DNA from: Planctomycetota bacterium | GTDB lineage: Bacteria > Planctomycetota > Planctomycetia > Gemmatales > Gemmataceae | Assembly: GCA_016177925.1 (NCBI GenBank) | Contig: JACOUH010000133.1 | Location: 1 to 64,000, forward strand | Length of the DNA: 64,000 nucleotides | Direction of reading: 5' to 3' | Position numbers and translations under genes: made by a program | In this document: one piece after another, positions 2,994 to 59,976 of the stretch | Layout of the letters: every line of letters begins with the position of its first letter | Position numbering within the stretch: position 1 is the first letter of the stretch | The notes under the pieces: model-generated | What the model was told of the DNA's origin: nothing | The model's database searches: none | The model's input: the letters and a program-made list of their open reading frames with translations, nothing else

Positions 2994-3521
2994 ATGAGCA
3001 CGACCCCGGGGGACTCACGCGAGCAGCGTTTCGATTCGCTGGAGCAGGAAGCGTTCCTGAACCTCTGGCGGACGTACGACCGCATGCGCGCCATCGAGCA
3101 GGACTTGTTCGGGCGCTACGACCTGACGCCACAGCAGTACAACGCGCTGCGGCTGCTGCGGGCGGCACGACAGCGGCTCGGCGGCAAGTGGCCGGGACGG
3201 TTGGCAACGCTCGACCTGGCTTCGCGTCTCGTGTCGCGCGCCCCCGACATTACGCGCCTGCTCGACCCGTTAGAGCGACGCGGCCTGGTCGAGCGCGACC
3301 GTCCTGCCCACAACCGCCGTGTCGTCTGTGTCGGCATCACGGAGGCTGGCCTGGACCTACTGCGGGAGTTGGGCGAGCAGGTCCGCGCCTGTCACGCCCG
3401 TCAGTTCGGCCACCTGTCGGAGAAAGAACTGCGCGACCTGATCGTCCTGCTCCGCGCCGCCCGTCGACCGCACGAGGAGCCGGACAGCGCCTGGCTCGAC
3501 TCCGGCGAGCGGGGGGTGTGA
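2994..3521 (+). CDS. MarR-family transcriptional regulator
   Basis: A 175-residue winged-helix DNA-binding protein. The pattern is that of MarR: an N-terminal dimerisation helix (EAFLNLWRTYDRMRAIEQDL), LTPQQYNALRLLR, a recognition region (DLASRLVSRAPDITRLLDPL), then the wing (ERRGLVERDRPAHNRRVVCV) and a C-terminal helix. The ligand is unknown. Its last residues (GERGV) and its TGA stop are encoded by the left arm of a 61-bp palindrome (3504-3564), so the natural C-terminus was probably replaced when the palindrome arrived; the hairpin may also end transcription. It lies directly downstream of the GH38-like gene and upstream of two YfhO-type membrane proteins, which it might control. Confidence 0.85.
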   Translation: MSTTPGDSREQRFDSLEQEAFLNLWRTYDRMRAIEQDLFGRYDLTPQQYNALRLLRAARQRLGGKWPGRLATLDLASRLVSRAPDITRLLDPLERRGLVERDRPAHNRRVVCVGITEAGLDLLRELGEQVRACHARQFGHLSEKELRDLIVLLRAARRPHEEPDSAWLDSGERGV

Positions 3522-3564
3522 ACCCCCCGGTAAGCTACCGGGGGGTTCACACCCCCCGCTCGCC
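3504..3564. repeat. 61-bp dispersed palindrome, GGCGAGCGGGGGGTGTGAAC family
   Basis: Near-perfect inverted repeat with arms of about 28 bp around TAAGCT. The same arm begins the palindromes at 40506-40590 and, in degraded form, lies at 11985-12015. It supplies the stop codon of the MarR gene and can form a strong hairpin. Confidence 0.9.
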
Positions 3565-3652
3565 GGGCGGCTACGAGTCGCCCGCGGGACGTTTCCCCGA
3601 TAACATCAGAGGAGGGGCGCCCATTGGAAACGCCGCTGCGGAGAGGCTCGCC

Positions 3653-6058
3653 GTGCTGTCTCGCTGGGGCCCCGTACTGGTCCTGACGCTCCTCGCCCTG
3701 CTCTACTTTTTCCCCCTCGTTTTCCACCCGACGCAGGTCCTCTACGGCGAGGCGTCCGACCTCCTGGCGGAACACATCCCCTCGAAACGCTTCGTGGTGC
3801 GCTCGTTCCACGAGACCGGCGAGTTGCCGCTGTGGTGTCCGTGGCAGTTTGCGGGGACACCCGTCGTACATGACATCCAGCAAGCCCTCTTCTACCCGCC
3901 GCACTTCGTCTTCCTGGTGCTGTCGGAGGAGTGGGTCGGCCCTGTCGTCAGCTGGCTCATCGTCCTGCACGTCCTGCTCGCTGGCCTGCTGATGTTCGTC
4001 TACGTTCGCCACCGCGGACTTCTCCCGTTCCCGGCCACGGTCGCCGCGGCCGGCTACATGTTCGCGGGGCGATGGATGCTGCACCTGCTCGGCGGAGGGC
4101 ACTACATCACGATCGGCCTCGCCTGGCTGCCCCTCGTCCTGCTCTGCCTCGACCGCGCCATCCAGCGCGGCAGTCTACTCTGGGCCACCTGGGCGGGACT
4201 GGTATTTGCCCTGCTCGTCCTTTGTACGCAGCCGCAGTGGACCTTCTACGCGGGCCTGTTCGCGACATTCTCCACCCTCGGCACGGCCCTGGAGGAAGCG
4301 GGCTACCTCAATGGGACGGGGGAGCGCAGCCGTGGCCGAACGGCGCGGGCACTGGGGCGCTGGCTGGGTTTCGGCGCCTGGGCCGTGGGCCTTGCGGTTG
4401 CGCTCGCCGCGGTCCAGCTGCTGCCGACGCTCGAGGCCGCGCGCCACTCCACCCGCGCCGGCGGCGTGGCCCCCGAGGACCCCTACGAGAGCCTGCGCAC
4501 TCTCCTCTTCCTCGTCGGCCCCTCCCTTTTCGGACAGGGCCCCTACCTGATGTGGGAGGACCGCGGCGGACTCACCCTGCTCTGGGCGATCGCCGCCGTG
4601 CTCGCGCCTCTGCTCCGCGGTGGACAGGTTCGCTACCAGGCTGGCCTGTGCGCCGGCATGCTCCTGCTCGCCGTCTTCGGCGCGTTCGCCGGCCGTTGGC
4701 TGCCGGTCTTCAACCTGTTCCGCCAGCACCCGCGCATCCTCGTGGTCGCTTCGCTGCCGATCGCTTACCTCGTCGGCGTCACTACGCAGGCCCTCTTCGT
4801 CGACGCGCCCTCGCCACGACGGCGACGCCTTTGCTTCCGCGTCACGCTGGGACTCGGCGTCCTCGCCTTGCTCGCGACGGCCAGCTTCGTCGTGGCGCGT
4901 CTTGTTCGCGCTGAGGATCTGCGTTTCGATGTCTACTGGGTCTTCATGCCGGTCTTCTTCGTTCTGGCCCTGTGGCTGCTCCGCCCCGACCCGGTGGGGG
5001 AGGCTTCCAGCCTGCCGGAAAAAGGCAGGCTGGAAGCCTCCCCCACGGGACTGCGGCGGGCGCTGCCGTGGGCCGTTCTGCTATTGGCCGACCTGTGGGC
5101 GCTGACCTGGCCGCTGGTCGAAGTACGGCCGGAGGGGGAACTCTTTCGAGCCCCGGTCTCCATTCGCTACCTCGTTGACCACCGTCACAAGGGGCGCGTG
5201 ATGGACATCGAGTACCTGGACGAGGGTTCTCCCCTCGGCCAGGGAGCGCCTGCGGCGCTACTGCTCGACCTCCAGGCGGTGCGGGGTTTCAACCCCATCG
5301 ATGTCCGCTACTACCGCGAGTACCTGGCCTTCATCGCCGACGTGGGGCGGCCTCTCCGCGCGCTTGAGAGTGCGGTCACCCACCCCCTCCCGCTCTCCTT
5401 CCCCCTCGAGAATCGCCGGCTGCTCGATCTGCTCGGCGTCCGCTACCTGCTTCACCCCAGCGCTACGTCCCCGCCAGGCGACCGCTGGCAGGAGAAGGTC
5501 GTGGACAAGGCCCCCCTGGGCTACAGCCTCGTCGTCGGCGGGCTGGTTACTTTGCCTTCTTACACGATCTCCGAAAACCTGGATGTGTTCCCGCGTGCCT
5601 TCGTCGTACCGCGTGCCCGTCCGCTGCCTCCCCGCCTCGAGGTGCTGCACGCCATGAAGACCACCAATTTCAGGGAGATCGTCCTCCTCGACGGGTACGA
5701 CGGCACCGACGAAGCACTCTCCACCTCCGGGTTCCATCCCGCCGACATCCGCCGTTACGAGCCCAACCGCGTCGAGCTGGAAGTCCGTGGAGCGCCCGGC
5801 TTCCTGGTGCTGACCGACGTCTGGTATCCCGGCTGGACCGCCACGGTCGACGGCGAGCCGGTCGAGATCTATCGTGCCAACCACGCGTTCCGCGCCGTCG
5901 CCGTGTCGGCGGGGACGCACACGGTCGTCTTCCGGTTCGAGCCAGCCCCGTACTTTTTGGGCCGTCGCATCAGTCTCGTAGCGCTGGCGGCGGTGGCCGT
6001 GCTGCTCTTGATCCTGACGGCTTGCGCAACGTGGCGCCGTTCTCGTGCCGGGTCGTGA
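3653..6058 (+). CDS. YfhO-type multi-spanning membrane protein (copy 1)
   Basis: About 801 residues with a dozen or so hydrophobic helices and a C-terminal extracytoplasmic domain. YfhO-family hallmarks are visible: ELPLWCPWQFAGTPVVHD near the N-terminus, GGGHYITIGLAWLPLVLLCL, and the C-terminal block FLVLTDVWYPGWTATVDGEP followed by AGTHTVVFRFEPAPYFLGRR. Members are thought to act in cell-envelope glycosylation; the substrate here is unknown. The open frame runs back to 2969, but that part crosses the MarR gene. The GTG at 3653 has GGAGAGG six bases upstream; an ATT at 3623 behind AGGAGGGG is a rarer alternative. A 53-bp palindrome (4994-5046) adds about 18 residues (VGEASSLPEKGRLEASPT) absent from the sister copy. 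TGATG overlap with copy 2. Confidence 0.85.
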   Translation: MLSRWGPVLVLTLLALLYFFPLVFHPTQVLYGEASDLLAEHIPSKRFVVRSFHETGELPLWCPWQFAGTPVVHDIQQALFYPPHFVFLVLSEEWVGPVVSWLIVLHVLLAGLLMFVYVRHRGLLPFPATVAAAGYMFAGRWMLHLLGGGHYITIGLAWLPLVLLCLDRAIQRGSLLWATWAGLVFALLVLCTQPQWTFYAGLFATFSTLGTALEEAGYLNGTGERSRGRTARALGRWLGFGAWAVGLAVALAAVQLLPTLEAARHSTRAGGVAPEDPYESLRTLLFLVGPSLFGQGPYLMWEDRGGLTLLWAIAAVLAPLLRGGQVRYQAGLCAGMLLLAVFGAFAGRWLPVFNLFRQHPRILVVASLPIAYLVGVTTQALFVDAPSPRRRRLCFRVTLGLGVLALLATASFVVARLVRAEDLRFDVYWVFMPVFFVLALWLLRPDPVGEASSLPEKGRLEASPTGLRRALPWAVLLLADLWALTWPLVEVRPEGELFRAPVSIRYLVDHRHKGRVMDIEYLDEGSPLGQGAPAALLLDLQAVRGFNPIDVRYYREYLAFIADVGRPLRALESAVTHPLPLSFPLENRRLLDLLGVRYLLHPSATSPPGDRWQEKVVDKAPLGYSLVVGGLVTLPSYTISENLDVFPRAFVVPRARPLPPRLEVLHAMKTTNFREIVLLDGYDGTDEALSTSGFHPADIRRYEPNRVELEVRGAPGFLVLTDVWYPGWTATVDGEPVEIYRANHAFRAVAVSAGTHTVVFRFEPAPYFLGRRISLVALAAVAVLLLILTACATWRRSRAGS
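4994..5046. repeat. 53-bp palindrome inserted in frame in YfhO copy 1
   Basis: Arms of 23 bp (GTGGGGGAGGCTTCCAGCCT onward) around GGAAAAA. Aligning the two YfhO paralogues leaves this stretch as an unmatched block in copy 1 between ALWLLRPDP and LRRALPWAVLL, so it is an insertion. It reads open in the host frame. Confidence 0.92.
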
Positions 6059-18432: not shown

Positions 18433-18437
18433 ACCCC

Positions 18438-18542
18438 GTGGGGCAGGCTTCCAGCCTGCCGGGCCGAGGCAGGCTGGAAGCCTGCCGGGCCGAGGCAGGC
18501 TGGAAGCCTGCCGGGCCGAGGCAGGCTGGAAGCCTGCCCCAC
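18438..18542. repeat. 105-bp tandem palindrome array
   Basis: One arm GTGGGGCAGGCTTCCAGCCT, then three exact copies of a 26-bp unit (GGGCCGAGGCAGGCTGGAAG plus CCTGCC), ending GCCCCAC. The ends match the two-arm palindromes at 36912 and 58177, so this is that element with the spacer plus right arm multiplied. It lies between convergent genes. Confidence 0.92.
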
Positions 18543-18549
18543 GAAGGGT

Positions 18550-19806: not shown

Positions 19807-20088
19807 GGTGGTTCGGTGGTTGGGTGGTTAGAGCGGTTTGCATTTGCTCGTAGCACAGGCGTCTCGCCTGTGCGCTGTCGCGGTTCGGCACAGGCGAGAC
19901 GCCTGTGCTACGGCCGACTGCAAAACGCCTTGTGGCGTGCATCGCGAAGGATGGCCGCCCCCACGGCGAGACGCCTGTGCTACGGCCGACTGCAAAACGC
20001 TCTAGGTGGTTCGATGGGACTTGGCCTCGGGAATAATGCAGGGTCAGCGCCCTATCAACCACCCAACCACCGAACCACCCAACCACCT
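19807..20088. mobile_element. About 282-bp MITE-like composite element with 23-bp terminal inverted repeats
   Basis: Left end GGTGGTTCGGTGGTTGGGTG plus GTT at 19807-19829, perfect inverted copy at 20057-20079 and a further partial repeat to 20088. Inside lies a palindrome GTAGCACAGGCGTCTCGCCT mirrored at 19850-19911, and a second half of it at 19965-20002; the block CTACGGCCGACTGCAAAACG occurs twice. It has no coding capacity and fills the gap between the kinase and thiolase genes. Confidence 0.8.
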
Positions 20089-36911: not shown

Positions 36912-36965
36912 GTGGGGCAGGCATCTTGCCTGCCTCTGTCGTGGCAGGCTAGAAGCCTGCCCCAC
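36912..36965. repeat. 54-bp palindrome, GTGGGGCAGGC family
   Basis: Imperfect arms (GTGGGGCAGGCATCTTGCCT and GGCAGGCTAGAAGCCTGCCC plus CAC) in the gap between the first two genes of the redox operon. Confidence 0.88.
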
Positions 36966-38671: not shown

Positions 38672-38734
38672 TGTAGGACGGATTTCCAATCCGTCCGGGC
38701 GTCACGCCGGGACGGATTTCCAATCCGTCCTACA
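38672..38734. repeat. 63-bp palindrome, GGACGGATTTCCAATCCGTC family
   Basis: TGTAGGACGGATTTCCAATC plus CGTCC, spacer GGGCGTCACGCC, and its mirror. Each arm is itself palindromic. A second copy is at 62184-62243. It lies between the cytochrome and nuoEF-like genes. Confidence 0.92.
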
Positions 38735-47655: not shown

Positions 47656-47675
47656 AGCATTTTGCCAACGCGTGT

Positions 47676-47749
47676 GGCGAGCGGGGTCCGTAATGACCCC
47701 GGTTTGCTGCTGGTTGTTCGTACCGGGGTCATTACGGACCCCGCTCGCC
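47676..47749. repeat. 74-bp palindrome, GGCGAGCGGGGTCCGTAATG family
   Basis: Arms GGCGAGCGGGGTCCGTAATG plus ACCCCGG, spacer TTTGCTGCTGGTTGTTCGTA. It shares the GGCGAGCGGGG tip with the family at 3504. It lies between the convergent response regulator and selD genes. Confidence 0.92.
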
Positions 47750-47751
47750 AG

Positions 47752-51428: not shown

Positions 51429-54400
51429 TCAGTCCCAGCGCTTGATCTCCTCGAGCAGGTGCAGCACGTCGTTGCGGCGCTTCTCGAACAGGGCAAACAG
51501 CGCCAGGATCGCGCTGCCCAGGACGATCCCCGACACGTACCACACCCACGTCTGCGTGCGGTCGACCGCCGCGTGCCAGATCATGGCGAAGACGTCCAGG
51601 CACAGGAACGTCAGTCCCATGAACAGGAACGCCCGCACCCGCAGCTGGATGCCCGCCAGCACGCCGAGGACCGACAGCACCGCCAGCACCACCGGCCACA
51701 CCGCCGAATTGCCGACGCCGGCGATGAACAGGTCCGCGGTCGACGACACGTACAGCATGCTCAGCCCGACGTAGCGAAGCGTCAAGCTCTGCTCGCGGCT
51801 GAGCCGGTCCCGGTTGATCTGCTCCGACACGAGCACAATCAGCGCCAGCGGAATGAGCCACATCTGCGGGTGAAGCAGGAACGCGACGTCGAAGTGCAGC
51901 AGCAGCGTCCACAGGCCGAAGTTAGCCGCCAGCGCCGCCAGCAACGCGTAACGGAACGACCGCCGCGACAGGGCGACCAGGATGTACAGGACACTCAGCA
52001 GGAACCACAACAGCGAGTGCCGGTCGTAAGCCGGCGGCAGCTTGCGGAGGTAGTCCAGCAAGGGAGCCAGGCCGGGCGCGGCGCTCTCGGCGGCGTGCGT
52101 CAGGGCCAGCGGCGGGCGCAGCCAGAAGACCAGGATCGGCAGCAGCGGCAGGAACAGGCCGGTCCGCTGCAGGGGGCCCGCCAGCACGCGCAGCCCGCGG
52201 CGCTGGAAGAGTTCGCCCAGGCCGACGCCGACGTACGCCAGAGCCATCACCAGCAGCGTCCAGTATTTCGCGCCCCACTCTCCGAACAGCCCCGGTACAT
52301 TCAGCTTGAGGTGGACGAACAGCAGCACCAGCAGCAACTCGCTCCCGTAGACGTAGAGCGTCCGCCCGTGGGGCAGGTTGCCAACCTGCCTGGGAGAAGA
52401 AGGCAGGTTGGCAACCTGCCCCACGGCGGAGCGAAGGGCGAGGACGATGAGCGCCACAACGGCGAGGACTACCAGCAGCACTTCCAGGACGGTCAGGGGC
52501 GTCTGCTTGCTCACCTTGTCGTAGAGCAGAAACTCCTGGCCGAGTAGTACCAGAAGGACCAGCGGCGCGAGGGCGGCGAGGACCGCGGACGTGCGGACGA
52601 AACAGCCCTGCCAGGCACTCGCCGGCGGGAGCAATCGCCCGAGAAGATCGCGATACGCCACGGCCAGCAGCGTCAGCACGGTCAGGCACGCGGCGCTATG
52701 ATGCAGCCAGCCGGACGCCCCCGGCGCGAGCGGCACCCAGCTCGCCTCGACGCAGCCCACAACGCCCAGGACGAGCGCCGCGTAGCGCAGTTCCGTGACC
52801 CACCGCGGCGGCGCCCGGTCCGCCAGGAAGAAGCACGCGGGCAGGAGCAGGGCGACGGCGACGGGGCCGGCTACACGTCCGCCGGCAGTGGCGAACGACA
52901 GGCACACCCACAGGCTCACGGTCAGGGCGATGCTGGCGAGCGCGGCGACCGTGTGGCGGAACCAGTCGCGCGGGGGCTCCTCATAGAGGCTTGTGGGGAG
53001 TCGGAGGGTTCGCAGAAGGTCGGACAGCCGGGGGACGGCCCAGGCAGCCGCCGTGGTCAGGACGAGGTAACCGGCCAGCGTCAGGCAGGCGGCACGGACA
53101 AACTCCGTGGCGCCCAGCGGCAATGCTTGCAGCAACAACGCGGCGGCCAGCAGCCCCGCGGCGAACAGACCGGCCGGGGCAAACCGCGCCTCCCGATCCC
53201 ACAGGGCCGCGCCCAGGGCCGCCACCGTCAGCAGCAGGGCCGCCCATGCCAGCGCGCCGCCGGCCCGGAAGCTCTCTTCCGCAAAGACCGCTGCGACACC
53301 GGACGCGACCACCGCGCCGACCACCCCCAACGCCAGCCGCACGGCCACGTGCTGGAAGGAGAGCGAGAGCCCCCGGACACGGAAGGGTGGGACGCGCCCC
53401 GACAGCAGGTCCACCAGCGTCCAGGCGAGCGCGCCGAGGGCGAGCGACAGGGCGACGGTCAGGGCCAGCGTGTCCGGCGTGCCTGTGCCCCACGCGACCC
53501 AGACAAGGACACCCGCCAGAGTGAGCAAGATTCCGGAGAGGTAAACGTATCGTTGCTGGCGCAGGCCCAGCGCCAGCCCGGCCGCCATCAGCATCGCCAC
53601 ACACACGGGGCCAGCAGAGGCATACGGGCGAAGCGGGTCGTCCAAGCCGACGCGCAATCCCAGCAGGACCAGTGCCAGCCCAAGTCCCACCGCCCAGTGC
53701 CGCAGGGCAGGCATCGACCACAAGCGGGCGCGGACATCCGTGGCCGCGCGCCGGGCCTGCTCGCGGAGTGCCAGCAGGGCCCGGATGGTTGCCGCAGAGC
53801 CGAGTATGCCCCAGCAGACCGTCAGGACGTGGTAGGGCAACCACCCCGTCGACCAGCGGTTCGCCACGCACGCCGCCAGTACGCCGAGCGAAAGACAGCC
53901 GGTTCCCAGGGCGCTGACGAAGAGTCGCGGCACCCGGCGGGCGCTGAACCAGAGCGCGGCCACGGTCGCGAGCAGGCACGCAGCCCAGCCGATAGGCTCG
54001 CCGAAGCGCGACAAGTGAATCGCCAGCGGGTGACCCGGGGCGAGCACCAGCGCCATCAGCGGGACCGACAGCAGCAGAGCGTTGCCGGCGAGGCCCGCCA
54101 GGGACTGGACACCCAGCAGAGGGATTTTCTCCCTGTGCCAGGACTCCCACACGGAGAAGCGCCGGTCCGCCAGCAGCCAGAGCAGGGCGACCGCGGCAGA
54201 CGCGAGGACGTTGGCCTGGACGAGGACGATCCACAGGCCCGGATTCGCCAGACCCTCCAGGTGGCAGACAGCGAGAGAGGCCGCCAGGTTGACGCCGAAT
54301 CCCGCCGTGAACGCCCAGCGCTCCCGCCGCAGCCAGAAGGCCATGCACGCCCCCGCCGCACTGGCCAGCCCGACCGTCCCTGACGCCCACAGCCAGTCGC

Positions 54401-57400
54401 CGTGAACGAACGCGGCCTTCAGGGCGAGCAGGACCGCCGACAGGCCGAGGCCCGCCACCCAGGCGGACGCCGTCTCCGCCGGCGGGAATGGCGCAAGCAC
54501 GCGGAGCCGCAAGGGCCGGCGTTCGATGAATTGACCCAGCGACCAGAGCAGCGCCTGCCCGGCCAACCCCAGCAGGAAGACGCGGTAGCCCCAGCCGGGG
54601 AAGAGACGCTCGGCGGTGCAGCCGAGCAACCCGGCCGTCACAGCGCCGCCCAGCCCGACACCGTGCCAAGACAGGCATTCGCCCCGTCGCACAAGCCGCA
54701 GAGGTGGGGCGGTCAGTGCGGCGAGCAGGGCCAGCCAGCCGAGCAGGGAGCCGGTTTCCGTCGTCAGCGGTCCCGGCTCACGGGCTGGCGCGGCCAGGAC
54801 CAGCGGAACCAGGCCCAGGCAGAGGACGAGGGCAATCCCGCCGAGTGCCAGGCCGAGCTGGGCGAGCATCAGCGGTCGGGCCGTCTTCGTGGCCGGCATC
54901 TCGCGCCAGGCAGATGTCCACGGGTAGGCGAGCAGCCATGCCAGCGCCCACAGCCCAGCCGCCAGGCTGCCCAGCTGCACAAGGCGCACCGATTGCACCT
55001 CGTCGAGGCGGCCGCCGCCCGTCACCACGGCCAGGGCGTAGCCTCCCACCAGGGCGACGTTCGCCACCAGCCCGCCCGAGAAGGCGTAGCCAGGCGAGCG
55101 CTCGCGCAAGGCGTGTCCGACCAGCCCGAGACAGAGCAAGGCGAGAGGCGTCACGTTACTCGCCACCCAGCCCAGCCGGCGGAACAACGATCCGACGGCG
55201 GGGCCCGATGGGCTCTCTCCCGCGAAACCCAGCGCGGCAACCACTGCGGTCAACAGCAGGACGGGAGCGACCGTGCCGCTGACCACGAGGGCGCGCGTCC
55301 AGCGGCTTACCGGCAGGGCCGTCGGCGCTTCGATGCCCAGCCGGCCCGCCAAGCGTCCGGCCGGCTCGCGCAACCAGAGCAGCGCCGAACAGGCGAGCAG
55401 CGCCAGGCCGAGTCCCCAGCGCACGGCCGTCGCCGTCGCCAACTCGCCGTCCCAGCGGGCCGCCGCGAGGACAGGGACCGTCAGCGCCACGGTCGCCAGG
55501 CCGAGTACGCCGAGCGCGATGCGGTCCCACAGCGTTGCCACCAGCACGAACGCCAGCACGCCGAGGAGCAGCCAGCCGCCGGGGCCTGCGGCGACTCCCC
55601 CGGCGTCGACATCGAGAGGCAGCCCGCGTGGAGTCAACTCGCGCACGATCCCCGGCCACGTCTCCCCGACTGCCAGGACAAGCTGACCGAGTACCACCCC
55701 GGCCAGCACCAGCCGGTCCCACGCCGGCCACGGCGGTTCCAGGAGCGGACGAGCCCGCTCCTGACCACGCAGCGCCAGCCGCAGCCCGACCCACACCAAC
55801 CCGAGCAGCCCCAGCCCCACTCCAAGGGCCTGCAGCGTGCGCGGGTCGCCCAGATCGGCCGGCCCGGTGCCCCACGGCTGGGCCTCGACCCAGCCCGCGG
55901 CGGCCAGCAGCGCTGCCGTACTGAGGGCCGCCTGGAAGGCGGTGAACCACCCCGGCGAGGACTCCATGCAGGAGAACGCCAGCCAGAGCACGGCCAGCCA
56001 CGTCACGTAGCCAGCCAGGACAAGGGGCTCTCCCCATGCGGACGCTCCCATGACTGGAATGCTGATCAGAGAGGTCAGCAAGCCCGCCCGCCCGAGCGGG
56101 CCTCGGAACAGCATATCGATCCGGTCAGGATTCGTGGGGCAGGTTGCCAACCTGCCTGGGAGAAGAGGCAGGTTGGCAACCTGCCCCACGAAGGCGAGAA
56201 ACAGCCGCGCGAGCATCAGGAGGGTTACATGTCCGAGCAAGGCCACCAGCCCGGGGCGCGCGACCCACCCCTCGGGAATGTCCCACACCAGTGCGTGGGT
56301 CAGCCCGGCCCAGAGGAACGCGGCGCCGACCCAGGTGCCGAAGGACCAGCCGTTGACCCACACCAGGAGCCAGGTCGCTGCCGCGAGGATGAACACGGTC
56401 AGCGTGTGACCGGTGCCTTCGGGGAAACCCGGGGCGGACAGGTCGAATAGCAGCGCCAGGGACCCGGCGACCCAAGCGAGGTCGTGACAGGGGGCTGTCA
56501 GCACCTCGTAGCGACAGGCGGCTCGCCTGTCGGGCTGTCGGACTGGGACAGCCGAGCCGGCTGTCCCTACGAGCCCGTGCCACACGGCCAGCGCCGCCAG
56601 GCCCAGCGCCTCGAGGGCCAGCACTACTCCCCACAAGGGCGGTCGCCCCGGCCAGCCCGCGAGCAGTGCCCACAGCGTCGCGGTGAGGAACAGCCCCTGC
56701 CCGGCATAGCTCAGGCTGATGCGCTGCCAGCGCACGTTCGCCAGCAGGGCCGTGACCGCGTACAGCCCACAGACGAGAGCTGCCCGTCCCGGCTCCGAGA
56801 GGCCCTCCGCGCTCACCAGCCAGAGGCTCAGCCCGGCCACCGCGGCGCTCCCCAGCGCCTGGGCGACCGCGTGCTCGCGAAGTCCCCTGCGGGCCAGCAG
56901 TTCAGCCGTCCCGCTCAGCAGCACCACGAGTACCGCCAGGACCGCACCGCTCGCGCCCGAGAAGAGTTCCGCCGCCAGCCTCACGCCGTCTCCGCGCGAC
57001 AGGGCCAGGTTGCCCACGGCGAGGTGGAAGGCGGTCAGGGAGCCCAGGACGAGGCACGGCAGGGCGGCGGCGTGCGCGAGCGGCATGTGCTGGCGGAAGG
57101 CGAGGTAGGTCAGCACCGCCGCGTCGACGGCGCAGACGGCCAGGAGCACGCCCGGGTCAGGCCAGGCCAACGTCACGGCCCCGAGCAGGACTAACATCCC
57201 GGCCAGGGCGACAGCCGTGGACACGGTCCGCAGTCCGCCCAGCGAGGGACTCTCGTCTCCGAAATGGGAGGGCGAGGCTCCTGCCGAGTCGGCAATCGGC
57301 TCGGCAGGAGCCTCGCCCTCCCCTCCGAGGCGTCGTTGCAGCAGCAGCCCGGCCGACAGGACCGGCACGCCGGACACAGCCAGCGGCAGCGCCAGGTACT

Positions 57401-58757
57401 GGAGGGCTATCCGCATGTCGGCGGCCCGAGACAGGAGGAAGCCCAGGGGGACCGCCAGCGCGAACGTACACAGCCCGAGGAAGAGCAGGATGCGATAAAC
57501 CTCTCCCTCGCCGAGCGCTTCGTGGGGCAGGTTGCTAACCTGCCTGGGAGAAGAGGCAGGTTGAAAACCTGCCCCACGAAGAAGGCGGAGGCGCCATCCG
57601 ATCGCCGTCAGCTGACAGCCGACCGCCAGGCAGGCCGGCAGGGCGAAGAGCCACGCGCCAGGTGGGTCGGGAAGACGCGGCACCAGAAGCTGCGTCGACG
57701 CGGCCCCCGCCACGCCGAGCGCCAGCAACCAGCGCGCCCTGGCCGCGAGCACGCGCCCCGCGCTGGCGACCACGGCCACGGACAGCATCAGGCCTGCCGC
57801 CATCGTCGCCGTCTCGGCCAGTCCTCCTTCCCGGCCGCGCAAGCGTCCGGCCAGCACCAGCAGATTGAGCGGAATCAGCAGCGTGGCGATGACCAGCAGG
57901 CCGCGGCTGGTCGACTCCAGTTTCCAGTGGTGCAGCGTGTAGTGGCCAGCCCCGAACAGGGCGAGGGTGATGCTGGAGAAGACGACGAAGGGAAAATAGG
58001 GGATCTGCTCCAGTGTCTGCCAGAGTGTGATGACCAGGGCGACGGAGCAGCCGACGATCAGCAGCCCGCCGACCAACTCGCCCCAGAGGATGTTGCGCTC
58101 CTCCATGAACCCGGCCAGCACATCGGTCCAGGATCGCCGCGGCCGTGCGGGCATCGGGGGAGATGCCTCGACCGGCGTGGGGCAGGCTTCCAGCCTGCCT
58201 TGGCCTGGCAGGCTGGAAGCCTGCCCCACGGGAAGAGGATGGGCGGGAGGCGGAGGGGGCTTTTGCTCGGCCGATTCCAGCAGGGGGAGGGCGACGGGAA
58301 TTTCCTCGCGGGGCGTTTCTGGCAGTTCGGGCCGCACGGCATCCGCTCTTGCGACCTCGGAGGGTACGGGCTCCGCGCGTCGGGGCACGCGGGCGGGGGA
58401 CCTGGCGCGGCCCAGCAAGGTGTCGCGCCGGCGGGCAAGGCACCGCAGCAGCCGGCCTGCCGTTTCCTCGTCCAGGTCGCCCTGCCGCGCCAGCCGGTGA
58501 ACGTTGCGCTCGGTGACTTCCAGCTCGCGAAACTCGTCCGAGTCCGCGCCGCGGGCGAGGCCACAGTTCGGACAGACACGCATCCAGGACCGAAGCCGTT
58601 GCCCGCACTCGGCACAGGGCGCCGCCTGTTGAATCGTTCCCCGGCCGCCCTCTCCACCAAGCAGGCCACGAAAGAGCGTGCCGAACAACACCCACAGGCC
58701 GTGGCCCAGGAGGGTGATCAGCCCCACCACCAGCGCGAGGTAGAAGAGGATCTCCAC
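51429..58757 (-). CDS. Giant polytopic membrane protein with N-terminal zinc ribbon, carrying six palindrome insertions
   Basis: About 2442 residues. One hydrophobic helix, then a zinc ribbon (CAECGQRLRSWMRVCPNCG, about 45-65), a helical linker (NVHRLARQGDLDEETAGRLL), a Pro-rich part and dozens of hydrophobic helices to the C-terminus, with no known catalytic motif. GTG at 58757 is used because the first helix begins there; a TTG at 58778 is possible. The open frame is unbroken over 7.3 kb although six palindromes lie in it (58177, 57522, 57266, 56508, 56134, 52368). Leu/Ala/Gly bias and high GC match the neighbours. Function unknown; large repetitive membrane proteins of this type are found in planctomycetes. 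Confidence 0.85.
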   Translation of the reverse strand: MEILFYLALVVGLITLLGHGLWVLFGTLFRGLLGGEGGRGTIQQAAPCAECGQRLRSWMRVCPNCGLARGADSDEFRELEVTERNVHRLARQGDLDEETAGRLLRCLARRRDTLLGRARSPARVPRRAEPVPSEVARADAVRPELPETPREEIPVALPLLESAEQKPPPPPAHPLPVGQASSLPGQGRLEACPTPVEASPPMPARPRRSWTDVLAGFMEERNILWGELVGGLLIVGCSVALVITLWQTLEQIPYFPFVVFSSITLALFGAGHYTLHHWKLESTSRGLLVIATLLIPLNLLVLAGRLRGREGGLAETATMAAGLMLSVAVVASAGRVLAARARWLLALGVAGAASTQLLVPRLPDPPGAWLFALPACLAVGCQLTAIGWRLRLLRGAGFQPASSPRQVSNLPHEALGEGEVYRILLFLGLCTFALAVPLGFLLSRAADMRIALQYLALPLAVSGVPVLSAGLLLQRRLGGEGEAPAEPIADSAGASPSHFGDESPSLGGLRTVSTAVALAGMLVLLGAVTLAWPDPGVLLAVCAVDAAVLTYLAFRQHMPLAHAAALPCLVLGSLTAFHLAVGNLALSRGDGVRLAAELFSGASGAVLAVLVVLLSGTAELLARRGLREHAVAQALGSAAVAGLSLWLVSAEGLSEPGRAALVCGLYAVTALLANVRWQRISLSYAGQGLFLTATLWALLAGWPGRPPLWGVVLALEALGLAALAVWHGLVGTAGSAVPVRQPDRRAACRYEVLTAPCHDLAWVAGSLALLFDLSAPGFPEGTGHTLTVFILAAATWLLVWVNGWSFGTWVGAAFLWAGLTHALVWDIPEGWVARPGLVALLGHVTLLMLARLFLAFVGQVANLPLLPGRLATCPTNPDRIDMLFRGPLGRAGLLTSLISIPVMGASAWGEPLVLAGYVTWLAVLWLAFSCMESSPGWFTAFQAALSTAALLAAAGWVEAQPWGTGPADLGDPRTLQALGVGLGLLGLVWVGLRLALRGQERARPLLEPPWPAWDRLVLAGVVLGQLVLAVGETWPGIVRELTPRGLPLDVDAGGVAAGPGGWLLLGVLAFVLVATLWDRIALGVLGLATVALTVPVLAAARWDGELATATAVRWGLGLALLACSALLWLREPAGRLAGRLGIEAPTALPVSRWTRALVVSGTVAPVLLLTAVVAALGFAGESPSGPAVGSLFRRLGWVASNVTPLALLCLGLVGHALRERSPGYAFSGGLVANVALVGGYALAVVTGGGRLDEVQSVRLVQLGSLAAGLWALAWLLAYPWTSAWREMPATKTARPLMLAQLGLALGGIALVLCLGLVPLVLAAPAREPGPLTTETGSLLGWLALLAALTAPPLRLVRRGECLSWHGVGLGGAVTAGLLGCTAERLFPGWGYRVFLLGLAGQALLWSLGQFIERRPLRLRVLAPFPPAETASAWVAGLGLSAVLLALKAAFVHGDWLWASGTVGLASAAGACMAFWLRRERWAFTAGFGVNLAASLAVCHLEGLANPGLWIVLVQANVLASAAVALLWLLADRRFSVWESWHREKIPLLGVQSLAGLAGNALLLSVPLMALVLAPGHPLAIHLSRFGEPIGWAACLLATVAALWFSARRVPRLFVSALGTGCLSLGVLAACVANRWSTGWLPYHVLTVCWGILGSAATIRALLALREQARRAATDVRARLWSMPALRHWAVGLGLALVLLGLRVGLDDPLRPYASAGPVCVAMLMAAGLALGLRQQRYVYLSGILLTLAGVLVWVAWGTGTPDTLALTVALSLALGALAWTLVDLLSGRVPPFRVRGLSLSFQHVAVRLALGVVGAVVASGVAAVFAEESFRAGGALAWAALLLTVAALGAALWDREARFAPAGLFAAGLLAAALLLQALPLGATEFVRAACLTLAGYLVLTTAAAWAVPRLSDLLRTLRLPTSLYEEPPRDWFRHTVAALASIALTVSLWVCLSFATAGGRVAGPVAVALLLPACFFLADRAPPRWVTELRYAALVLGVVGCVEASWVPLAPGASGWLHHSAACLTVLTLLAVAYRDLLGRLLPPASAWQGCFVRTSAVLAALAPLVLLVLLGQEFLLYDKVSKQTPLTVLEVLLVVLAVVALIVLALRSAVGQVANLPSSPRQVGNLPHGRTLYVYGSELLLVLLFVHLKLNVPGLFGEWGAKYWTLLVMALAYVGVGLGELFQRRGLRVLAGPLQRTGLFLPLLPILVFWLRPPLALTHAAESAAPGLAPLLDYLRKLPPAYDRHSLLWFLLSVLYILVALSRRSFRYALLAALAANFGLWTLLLHFDVAFLLHPQMWLIPLALIVLVSEQINRDRLSREQSLTLRYVGLSMLYVSSTADLFIAGVGNSAVWPVVLAVLSVLGVLAGIQLRVRAFLFMGLTFLCLDVFAMIWHAAVDRTQTWVWYVSGIVLGSAILALFALFEKRRNDVLHLLEEIKRWD
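52368..52424. repeat. 57-bp in-frame palindrome (giant protein, copy 6)
   Basis: GTGGGGCAGGTTGCCAACCT plus GCC and mirror around TGGGAGAAGAA. Read as AVGQVANLPSSPRQVGNLPH on the minus strand. Confidence 0.92.
56134..56189. repeat. 56-bp in-frame palindrome (giant protein, copy 5)
   Basis: Same sequence as 52368-52424 with a shorter spacer (TGGGAGAAGA). Read in a different frame as FVGQVANLPLLPGRLATCPT. Confidence 0.92.
56508..56571. repeat. 64-bp in-frame palindrome (giant protein, copy 4)
   Basis: GTAGCGACAGGCGGCTCGCC plus TGTCGG facing GGGACAGCCGAGCCGGCTGT plus CCCTAC. Imperfect arms. Read as SAVPVRQPDRRAACRYE. Confidence 0.8.
57266..57322. repeat. 57-bp in-frame palindrome (giant protein, copy 3)
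   Basis: GGGAGGGCGAGGCTCCTGCC plus GAG, spacer TCGGCAATCGG, mirror. A family not seen elsewhere in the window. Read as GGEGEAPAEPIADSAGASPS. Confidence 0.9.
57522..57577. repeat. 56-bp in-frame palindrome (giant protein, copy 2)
   Basis: GTGGGGCAGGTTGCTAACCT plus GCC, spacer TGGGAGAAGA, right arm with two mismatches (GGCAGGTTGAAAACCTGCCC). Read as GAGFQPASSPRQVSNLPHEA with the flanks. Confidence 0.92.
58177..58229. repeat. 53-bp in-frame palindrome (giant protein, copy 1)
   Basis: GTGGGGCAGGCTTCCAGCCT plus GCC and perfect mirror around TTGGCCT. Read as VGQASSLPGQGRLEACPTPV. Nearly the same arms as 18438 and 4994. Confidence 0.92.
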
Positions 58758-58918
58758 GCGGCGGCCCTCGGACGGCAAGAAACGTGCCCCGCCACGGCCC
58801 TCCCGAGGCTGGCGGGATCGAAAGAATGATCCCGGCCCAGGAGAATTATTCCCGCCAGGGCACCGTGACTCCCCTCATGAAAGGCCCGCTGGGAGCAATC
58901 GCGTCACGGCCGCGCAAG

Positions 58919-58988
58919 AAAAGAAGAAGGGCAACCACGGAATACACGATGGGTGCCCGCCGTGTGTTCCGTGGTGGCCCTTCTTCGT
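58919..58988 (-). terminator. Long hairpin after the hydroxyacid dehydrogenase gene
   Basis: GAAGAAGGGCAACCACGGAA plus TACAC pairs with GTGTTCCGTGGTGGCCCTTC plus TTC; on the minus strand it lies right behind the dehydrogenase stop. A degraded related half (GGCAACCGTATATTCCGTGG) sits at 51388-51416, so it may be a repeat family used as a terminator. Confidence 0.6.
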
Positions 58989-58989
58989 T

Positions 58990-59976
58990 TTACCACTTAA
59001 AGCGATCGCGGACAGCGGGGTTGACCACCTTCTCCGCCGGCCACTCGCCGCGGCTCAACGAAATCACCGCCTGCGCCGCTGACAGTGCCATGTCATCGCG
59101 TGACTGCAGGTCGGTCCCGGCGGCGTGCGGCGTCACCACCACGTTGTCCAAATCGCACAGCTCCAACTTTCCCGGCGGCGGCTCCTGCTCGAACACGTCC
59201 AGGCCGGCGCCCGCGAGACGCTTGGCCCGCAGCGCCTCCAGCAGGTCCGCTTCGTTGACCAGCGAGCCGCGCGACAGGTTGAGGAGAAAAGCGGTCGGCT
59301 TCATCAGCGCCAGCGTCCGGTGGTTGATCAGGTGTTTCGTCTCCGGTGTCGCCGGCAGGTGCAGCGACAGGTAGTCGGACTCGGCCGCCAGCTGCTCGAA
59401 GGTCGGCACAAACCTGACGCCATGAGCCTGGGCAAAGGCGTTGTCGGGGACCGGATCGTAGGCGACCAGTCGCATGCCGAAGGCCTTGCCGCGCAGGGCG
59501 ACCGCCTTGCCGATGCGGCCCAGCCCCGCCACCCCCAGGATGCGGCCGCGCAACGGCAGCGTTGCTCGTCGCGGCCAGCCGCCCTCTTTCATCGCACAGT
59601 GCTGCGGCACCAGGTCCTTCGCCAGCGCCAGCAGCAGCGCGAAGGTCTGCTCCGCGACCGCCTCCTGGTTGGTGTTCGGGGCGATCGTCACCGCGATGCC
59701 CGCTGCCGTCGCCGCCTCCACGTCGACGGCATCGTAGCCGACGCCAACCCGAGCGATCACCCGCAGCTGGGGGTGTGCTTTGATCACCCGCGCCGTGTAC
59801 GGCTCCGACCCCGCAACGCTCGCCTTGATGCCCTTCAGATGCCCGAGCAACTCGTCCTCGAGCAGTTGATGGGCGACCGGCGGATAGACCAGCTCGAACC
59901 CCGCTGCGCGGAGCACCCGCACCCACTCGCCGTCGAGCCCTGCCAAGGTCATGGGCCCAATCAGGACTTTCTCCAT
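58990..59976 (-). CDS. D-isomer-specific 2-hydroxyacid dehydrogenase (phosphoglycerate-dehydrogenase-like)
   Basis: 328 residues. NAD-binding fold with GVAGLGRIGKAVALRGKAFG at about 148; catalytic Arg in NLSRGSLVNEADL, Glu in VFEQEPPPGKL and His in VVVTPHAAGTD, the complete set. IARVGVGYDAVDVEAATAAG is typical of SerA-like members, but no ACT or other C-terminal regulatory domain is present, so it may reduce or oxidise another 2-hydroxyacid. Its start lies six bases behind the PxpC-like stop, in one operon. Confidence 0.9.
   Translation of the reverse strand: MEKVLIGPMTLAGLDGEWVRVLRAAGFELVYPPVAHQLLEDELLGHLKGIKASVAGSEPYTARVIKAHPQLRVIARVGVGYDAVDVEAATAAGIAVTIAPNTNQEAVAEQTFALLLALAKDLVPQHCAMKEGGWPRRATLPLRGRILGVAGLGRIGKAVALRGKAFGMRLVAYDPVPDNAFAQAHGVRFVPTFEQLAAESDYLSLHLPATPETKHLINHRTLALMKPTAFLLNLSRGSLVNEADLLEALRAKRLAGAGLDVFEQEPPPGKLELCDLDNVVVTPHAAGTDLQSRDDMALSAAQAVISLSRGEWPAEKVVNPAVRDRFKW

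Follow-up and report, generated by a model that had tools for sequence, protein, structure and literature searches.

Palindromic repeats made of two inverted REP units lie in frame inside protein-coding genes of a Gemmataceae bacterium, and comparison with orthologues shows, at the level of sequence, that they were inserted there. Six of them sit in a single giant membrane-protein gene of the stretch that we analysed (hereafter the window; 64,000 nt of GenBank contig JACOUH010000133.1). In our view, the best explanation, to which we assign a probability of about 0.87, is that these palindromes are REPINs, non-autonomous repeats dispersed by RAYT/IS200-type transposases, which land genome-wide and whose harmless genic copies survive.

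The genome that contains the window is a fragmented metagenome-type assembly (MAG; 7.35 Mb in 484 contigs, 83% complete), the nearest named relatives of which belong to the Gemmataceae (Planctomycetota); Limnoglobus roseus was among the family genomes compared. The repeat census covered 1.43 Mb of the 7.35 Mb, with 1131 genes called by a purpose-written codon-usage caller and 85% of the DNA coding. Calls close to gene starts are uncertain, and therefore a copy was scored as intragenic only if the DNA to its left and to its right had a coding signal. In the first part of the census, contigs were partly picked for carrying the GGCAGG repeat, so per-family copy density is not derived from it.

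Each arm of the palindromes consists of a tetranucleotide tag (GTGG, GTAG or GGAG) followed by a stem–loop, i.e. a classical REP, and a tag with a stem–loop of ~20 nt was found for GTGG-GGCAGGTTGCCAACCTGCC, GTAG-GACGGATTTCCAATCCGTCC, GTAG-CACAGGCGTCTCGCCTGTG and GGAG-GGCGAGGCTCC. The dominant element reads GTGG-GGCAGG-N7-CCTGCC, followed by a short spacer and the reverse complement. Its inverted doublets span 52–62 nt, their arms are almost perfectly complementary, and longer clusters are rare. Such pairing of REP units in inverted orientation is the arrangement known as REPIN or BIME, which is associated with RAYT transposases. With one degenerate position allowed, the arm GTGGGGCAGG-N7-CCTGCC occurs 351 times in the 7.35-Mb genome (185 forward and 166 reverse matches), while the reversed control pattern has no match; variants of the GGCAGG arm recur in several further Gemmataceae genera (G003, G046, G052 and others). 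No direct target-site duplication of 2–6 nt was found at 43 unique dimer flanks, and in this respect the elements differ from classical DDE-type MITEs. The copies discussed here are listed in Table 1.

Table 1. Host gene and repeat palindromes of the window
Position	Strand	Feature	Evidence
51429..58778	-	Host gene, giant polytopic membrane protein, 2449 aa, ~61 TM-like segments, six REP dimers	Unbroken frame, coding score, orthologues, hydropathy
52366..52426		REPIN, GTGG-GGCAGGTTGCCAACCTGCC twice, inverted; encodes VGQVANLPSSPRQVGNLPH; 6/6 frames open	
56131..56192		REPIN, GTGG-GGCAGGTTGCCAACCTGCC twice, inverted; encodes VGQVANLPLLPGRLATCPT; 6/6 frames open	
56505..56573		GTAG-tagged imperfect palindrome (GTAG-CGACAGGC..GCCTGTCG); encodes VGTAGSAVPVRQPDRRAACRYE; 4/6 frames open	
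57266..57322		GGAG-tagged palindrome (GGAG-GGCGAGGCTCC); encodes GGEGEAPAEPIADSAGASPS; 6/6 frames open	
57518..57581		REPIN, diverged copy (TTGCTAACC / TTGAAAACC arms); encodes GAGFQPASSPRQVSNLPHE; only 3/6 frames open	
58176..58230		REPIN, GTGG-GGCAGGCTTCCAGCCTGCC twice, inverted; encodes VGQASSLPGQGRLEACPT; 6/6 frames open	
4994..5046		Dimer of the same class (GTGGGGGAGGCTTCCAGCCTGCC) inside gene 3518-6058 (+), YfhO-like membrane protein; encodes VGEASSLPEKGRLEASPT	
18437..18543		GGCAGGCTTCCAGCCTGCC REP, four-unit cluster, intergenic	
19850..19911		GTAG-CACAGGCG REP dimer, intergenic	
36912..36965		GTGG-GGCAGG REPIN, intergenic	
38672..38734		GTAG-GACGGAT REP dimer, intergenic	
47675..47750		GCGAGCGGGG palindrome, intergenic; family on both sides of HUH transposase gene L005 elsewhere in the genome	
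47882..47926		GCTTGCGGCTTAGC palindrome, intergenic; family adjoins HUH transposase gene of L009	
62180..62247		GTAG/GTGG-GACGGAT REP dimer, intergenic	

The giant frame runs on the minus strand without a stop, and all six palindromes lie within it, just as the original prediction had it; their sizes, given there as 53–64 bp, come to 55–69 bp when measured. Codon scores are positive to the left and right of all six inserts, and related proteins of 2073–2462 aa occur in other Gemmataceae genera: the frame is a real gene. Its six inserts are drawn from three families. The 19 intragenic repeat palindromes in 1.16 Mb of coding DNA outside the window give an expectation of 0.12 for a gene of 7.35 kb, against which six have a Poisson P of ~4e-9, a value uncorrected for the window having been picked and still small when multiplied by thousands of genes. 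Orthologues of the giant protein (~25–50% identity) are without the peptides at the six sites and mostly have shorter, variable segments there, and hydropathy places all six sites in or beside loops between membrane-like segments. The giant protein would be a sink for inserts because it has many variable loops between its membrane segments. Immediately upstream of the gene, a 72-bp inverted repeat of non-REP type (AAAAGAAGAAGGGCAACCACGG.., 58919-58990) sits at the 3′ end of gene 58990-59976.

Elsewhere in the genome, in-frame inserts lie in hosts as varied as a carboxyltransferase, a DUF1553 protein, a kinase-TPR protein, a P-type ATPase and others, and every insert checked was absent from the orthologues examined. 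The carboxyltransferase (PF01039; L025:14909-16696) carries VGQVANLPTERQVGNLPH in its middle, and its linker is 21 residues (63 nt, in frame) longer than that of its closest orthologues. The corresponding peptide was found in none of the 28 orthologous loci read first and in none of the 108 orthologous sequences of a larger set. Alignment to PDB 4q0g and 9tps places the insert in the variable linker that joins the enzyme's two halves. In the same linker, four different, unrelated palindromes lie in frame in L116/L324, L122, L265 and L276; the linker was invaded independently in at least four other planctomycete lineages, at least five in all. The linker of a DUF116-polyprenyl synthetase protein similarly carries a window-type repeat in our genome and another palindrome in L182, and for both this host and the DUF1553 protein, orthologue comparison puts the insert in a variable segment. 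The net change differs from the dimer length in the two best cases, with a 54-nt dimer and a net gain of 63 nt in the carboxyltransferase, and a 55-nt dimer and a net gain of 33 nt in the DUF1553 protein (L018), which means that flanking changes accompany or follow insertion. These orthologues come from other genera, so their empty sites are not the exact pre-insertion DNA. The view of the palindromes as dispersed mobile repeats that form peptide-coding inserts in frame is borne out by these orthologues, which have neither the palindrome nor the peptide.

The original prediction went further, proposing that selection or the insertion process favours repeats that are harmless in any frame, so that they spread as peptide-coding inserts. 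Some of the underlying observations hold. All six frames are open in the copies at 52366, 56131 and 58176, but stops occur in three of the six at 57518 and in other GGCAGG copies, and two of the six giant-gene copies (56505 and 57518) have stops in other frames. Copies are indeed read in different frames, with two phases of the 5′ arm in use (VGQ.. and GAG..). Among the intragenic GGCAGG copies, these two phases are found six times each and the third (WGR) never, an outcome with a chance probability of ~0.8% for 12 copies, although many variants would leave the WGR phase open. The claim that stop-bearing families lie between genes or at gene ends applies to the window (3502, 38672 and 23518, and on direct inspection 43036), but elsewhere in the genome some of them are inside genes (e.g. 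L079, L085, L223 and L241).

The census offers support for such selection at first sight. The mostly stop-free families (GGCAGG, GGCAAG and GGCGAGG) have 15 of 74 copies (20%) inside genes, against 8 of 180 (4%) for the others (Fisher P = 0.0002), and copies open in all frames make up 13 of the 23 inside genes but 47 of the 231 outside (P = 0.0004). Stop-containing families are therefore rarer in genes, and the equal frequency that had been named as counting against the idea is not seen; yet survivorship explains the difference. A null model of plain survivorship, which keeps inserts in proportion to their open frames and discards any that land in a closed one, predicts that 32% of the intragenic copies are all-open, and 57% are observed (P = 0.014). 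The window, however, was picked because of its giant gene, and without it the excess vanishes (33% predicted and 8 of 16, or 50%, observed; P = 0.125). When only GTGG-GGCAGG copies outside the window are taken, survivorship predicts 61% all-open copies inside genes, and 5 of 8 are observed; within this family, copies with and without stops are alike in this regard (P = 0.35 and 0.71 when the window is included and left out, respectively). Nor are stop-free arms improbable in themselves, since 7–48% of shuffled arms, depending on composition, are open in all six frames. All-frame openness is a trait of some variants (TTGCCAA and CTTCCAG) and not of the GGCAGG family as a whole, in which 33 of 61 copies are all-open and about half have a stop in some frame. 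The lengths of the intragenic elements show no bias towards multiples of three (mod-3 counts of 3, 3 and 4), which argues that the elements are not adapted to coding. Most copies are, moreover, extragenic: of the 257 repeat palindromes in 1.43 Mb, 194 are intergenic, 37 lie at gene ends, 23 (9%) are clearly inside genes and 3 are doubtful, and the gene with six inserts is the exception. As 85% of the DNA is coding, this depletion implies that most insertions have been purged. Survival in open frames accounts for the stop-free enrichment inside genes and no special selection is needed; we regard selection for any-frame harmlessness as quite improbable.

That the inserts serve as functional peptides or regulatory hairpins under positive selection, acting through translation attenuation or linker-length tuning, would fit with the unrelated in-frame palindromes gained by one carboxyltransferase linker in at least five lineages, and with six independent insertions in the giant gene. 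The inserts at that one site nevertheless belong to different families and encode different peptides, and the linkers are hypervariable, which speaks for tolerance rather than function. The absence of each checked insert from the orthologues examined argues in the same direction. Palindrome integrity is equal inside and outside genes, with a mean of 0.92 and 0.66 arm mismatches, respectively (P = 0.36), and thus gives no sign of a different selective regime. Altogether, we consider a positively selected function very improbable. As for an artefact of assembly or gene calling, with chimeric contigs or a spurious long frame, the fragmented state of the assembly might raise such a concern; however, the frames have a coding signal, and orthologues align, on both sides of the inserts, and the same type of event recurs in many contigs and in other genomes, leaving this explanation with hardly any credibility.

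Turning to how REPINs would reach these sites, REPs are substrates of single-strand HUH transposases, as demonstrated for E. coli and other TnpA_REP (PMC8266576), and mobilization in trans by RAYTs, followed by purging, is therefore the most likely route. According to the published work, the REP tag takes part in the choice of cleavage site, and one system retains cleavage with a GTGG tag (PMC8266576). In this scheme, RAYT/IS200-type HUH tyrosine transposases would disperse REPINs in trans by acting on single-stranded hairpin DNA, and the elements would insert across the genome. Nearly all genic copies would then be lost through a frame shift, a stop or a damaged fold. The survivors would be those that landed in an open phase with a net change divisible by three, flanking bases having been added or removed in some cases, and that lie in loops or linkers able to tolerate ~20 more residues, which we infer to be neutral. 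Because intragenic dimers do not come in multiples of three, the reading frame must be restored by bases gained or lost at the flanks.

The genome encodes nine Y1_Tnp genes, several of which are flanked by palindromes, and one of which passes the NCBIfam cut-off for RAYTs. This protein (L001) scores 83.9 bits against NF047646 (REP-associated tyrosine transposase; cut-off 80) and is, by this match, a genuine RAYT; GTAG-GTCAGGCTTTCCAGCCTGAC REPs, with a core similar to the CTTCCAG variant of the family in the window, lie ~0.7 kb from its gene. At L003, GTAG-GCGGGG REPs are present on both sides of the matched stretch, a flanking that counts only as a hint because the match falls in a long frame with an incomplete domain. 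Palindromes of the 47675 type lie on both sides of the HUH transposase gene L005, a related family is found on both sides of L006, and L009 is located beside the 47882-type family. No RAYT accompanied by GTGG-GGCAGG REPs was found in the 83%-complete genome or among the RAYT loci of the family that were read, so we infer the mobilizer of this family. The RAYTs of G043 were considered as its cognates and rejected: a single copy lies between two of them, and the REPs of the nearer one are GTAG-CCCCGG/CCCAGG.

The flanks of the GTGG dimers are complementary beyond the element itself, over a mean of 1.67 bp compared to 0.77 bp in shuffles (none of 2000 shuffles as high), and 12 of 43 dimers have at least 3 bp of such complementarity, against 3.1 expected. 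Complementarity of 3–7 bp (gaac..gttc, cctt..aagg, tccgcc..ggcgga and ggtcttc..gaagacc) is seen at L025:15803-15856, L026:6425-6480, L027:17931-17982 and L069:3874-3931, and at 56134-56189 and 57522-57577 of the window. Such flanks could mean that the targets are themselves palindromic, or that insertion duplicates target bases in inverted orientation. An extended reading, which we think unlikely, combines REPIN insertion that leaves an inverted copy of the flank with the idea that tags which have lost the TAG stop (GTGG and GGAG in place of GTAG) are coding-compatible variants, the genic niche having shaped tag evolution. Inside-gene copies number 13 of 58 for tags without TAG and 2 of 29 for GTAG, which is only a trend (P = 0.08; 0.26 without the window). 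If this reading were true, TAG-less REP families would gain extra copies by surviving inside genes. Opitutus terrae, which holds the published record for intragenic GTAG repeats, has a GTGG family as well.

Several elements of this picture are already known. Di Nocera, De Gregorio and Rocco (2013; PMC3733652) described tagged REP dimers contained entirely within genes, where they code for 20–30 residues, as well as GTAG REPs in PVC bacteria including Planctomycetes; in their survey, Opitutus terrae had the most intragenic GTAG repeats, the tag of its family GTAG-20 was mostly GTGG, and RAYT genes had either REPs or unrelated long inverted repeats (TIRs) at their flanks. The intragenic tagged dimers, the GTGG family and the types of RAYT flanking are common to both studies, with L005, L006 and L009 resembling the TIR-flanked class. 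Our case differs in its REP sequences, its Gemmataceae host, the empty sites in orthologues, the numerical survivorship test, and the repeated hits on one linker by unrelated families. The REPINs of Pseudomonas fluorescens, which Bertels and Rainey (2011; PMC3116915) studied in extragenic DNA, share with ours the inverted REP doublets, short spacer, hairpin, high copy number and RAYT genes in the genome, whereas here about one-fifth of one family lies inside genes and the cognate RAYT was not found. In-frame insertion is likewise known for the Rickettsia palindromic elements (RPEs), which are ~150 bp long, or shorter and CGTC-tagged with no known transposase, and which reportedly encode a conserved peptide (PMC10969869, PMC3733652). 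Like the repeats described here, they are mobile palindromes that have entered a wide range of unrelated genes in frame. Length and tag, the two features compared, set ours apart (52–62 bp, with GTGG, GTAG or GGAG tags), and ours are read in more than one phase. What is new is thus the Gemmataceae case with its empty sites, the survivorship test, the gene with six inserts from three families, and the repeated hits on a single enzyme linker.

These findings mean that REP/REPIN elements supply segments of ~20 residues to bacterial proteins, a core carboxyltransferase included, and the Gemmataceae would be well suited to estimating how frequently mobile palindromes turn into protein. Peptides of this kind (VGQVANLP.., RQVGNLPH and GRLEACPT) will confront both gene callers and domain models across planctomycete proteins.

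Two further kinds of inverted structure were observed in the genome. The GTGG dimers at L020:11523, L027:10677 and L064:19405 are enclosed in a longer inverted repeat (GGTTTCAAAAC..GTTTTGAAACC) with near-identical copies, and the whole may be a composite mobile unit of greater size. At L014:16713, L019:10142-12778, L024:8012 and L084:4690, short units (GCAGATT, GATGAAG and GAACGTC) are repeated in inverted arrays that form long hairpins, and several of these arrays fall within called genes, where they are read in frame.
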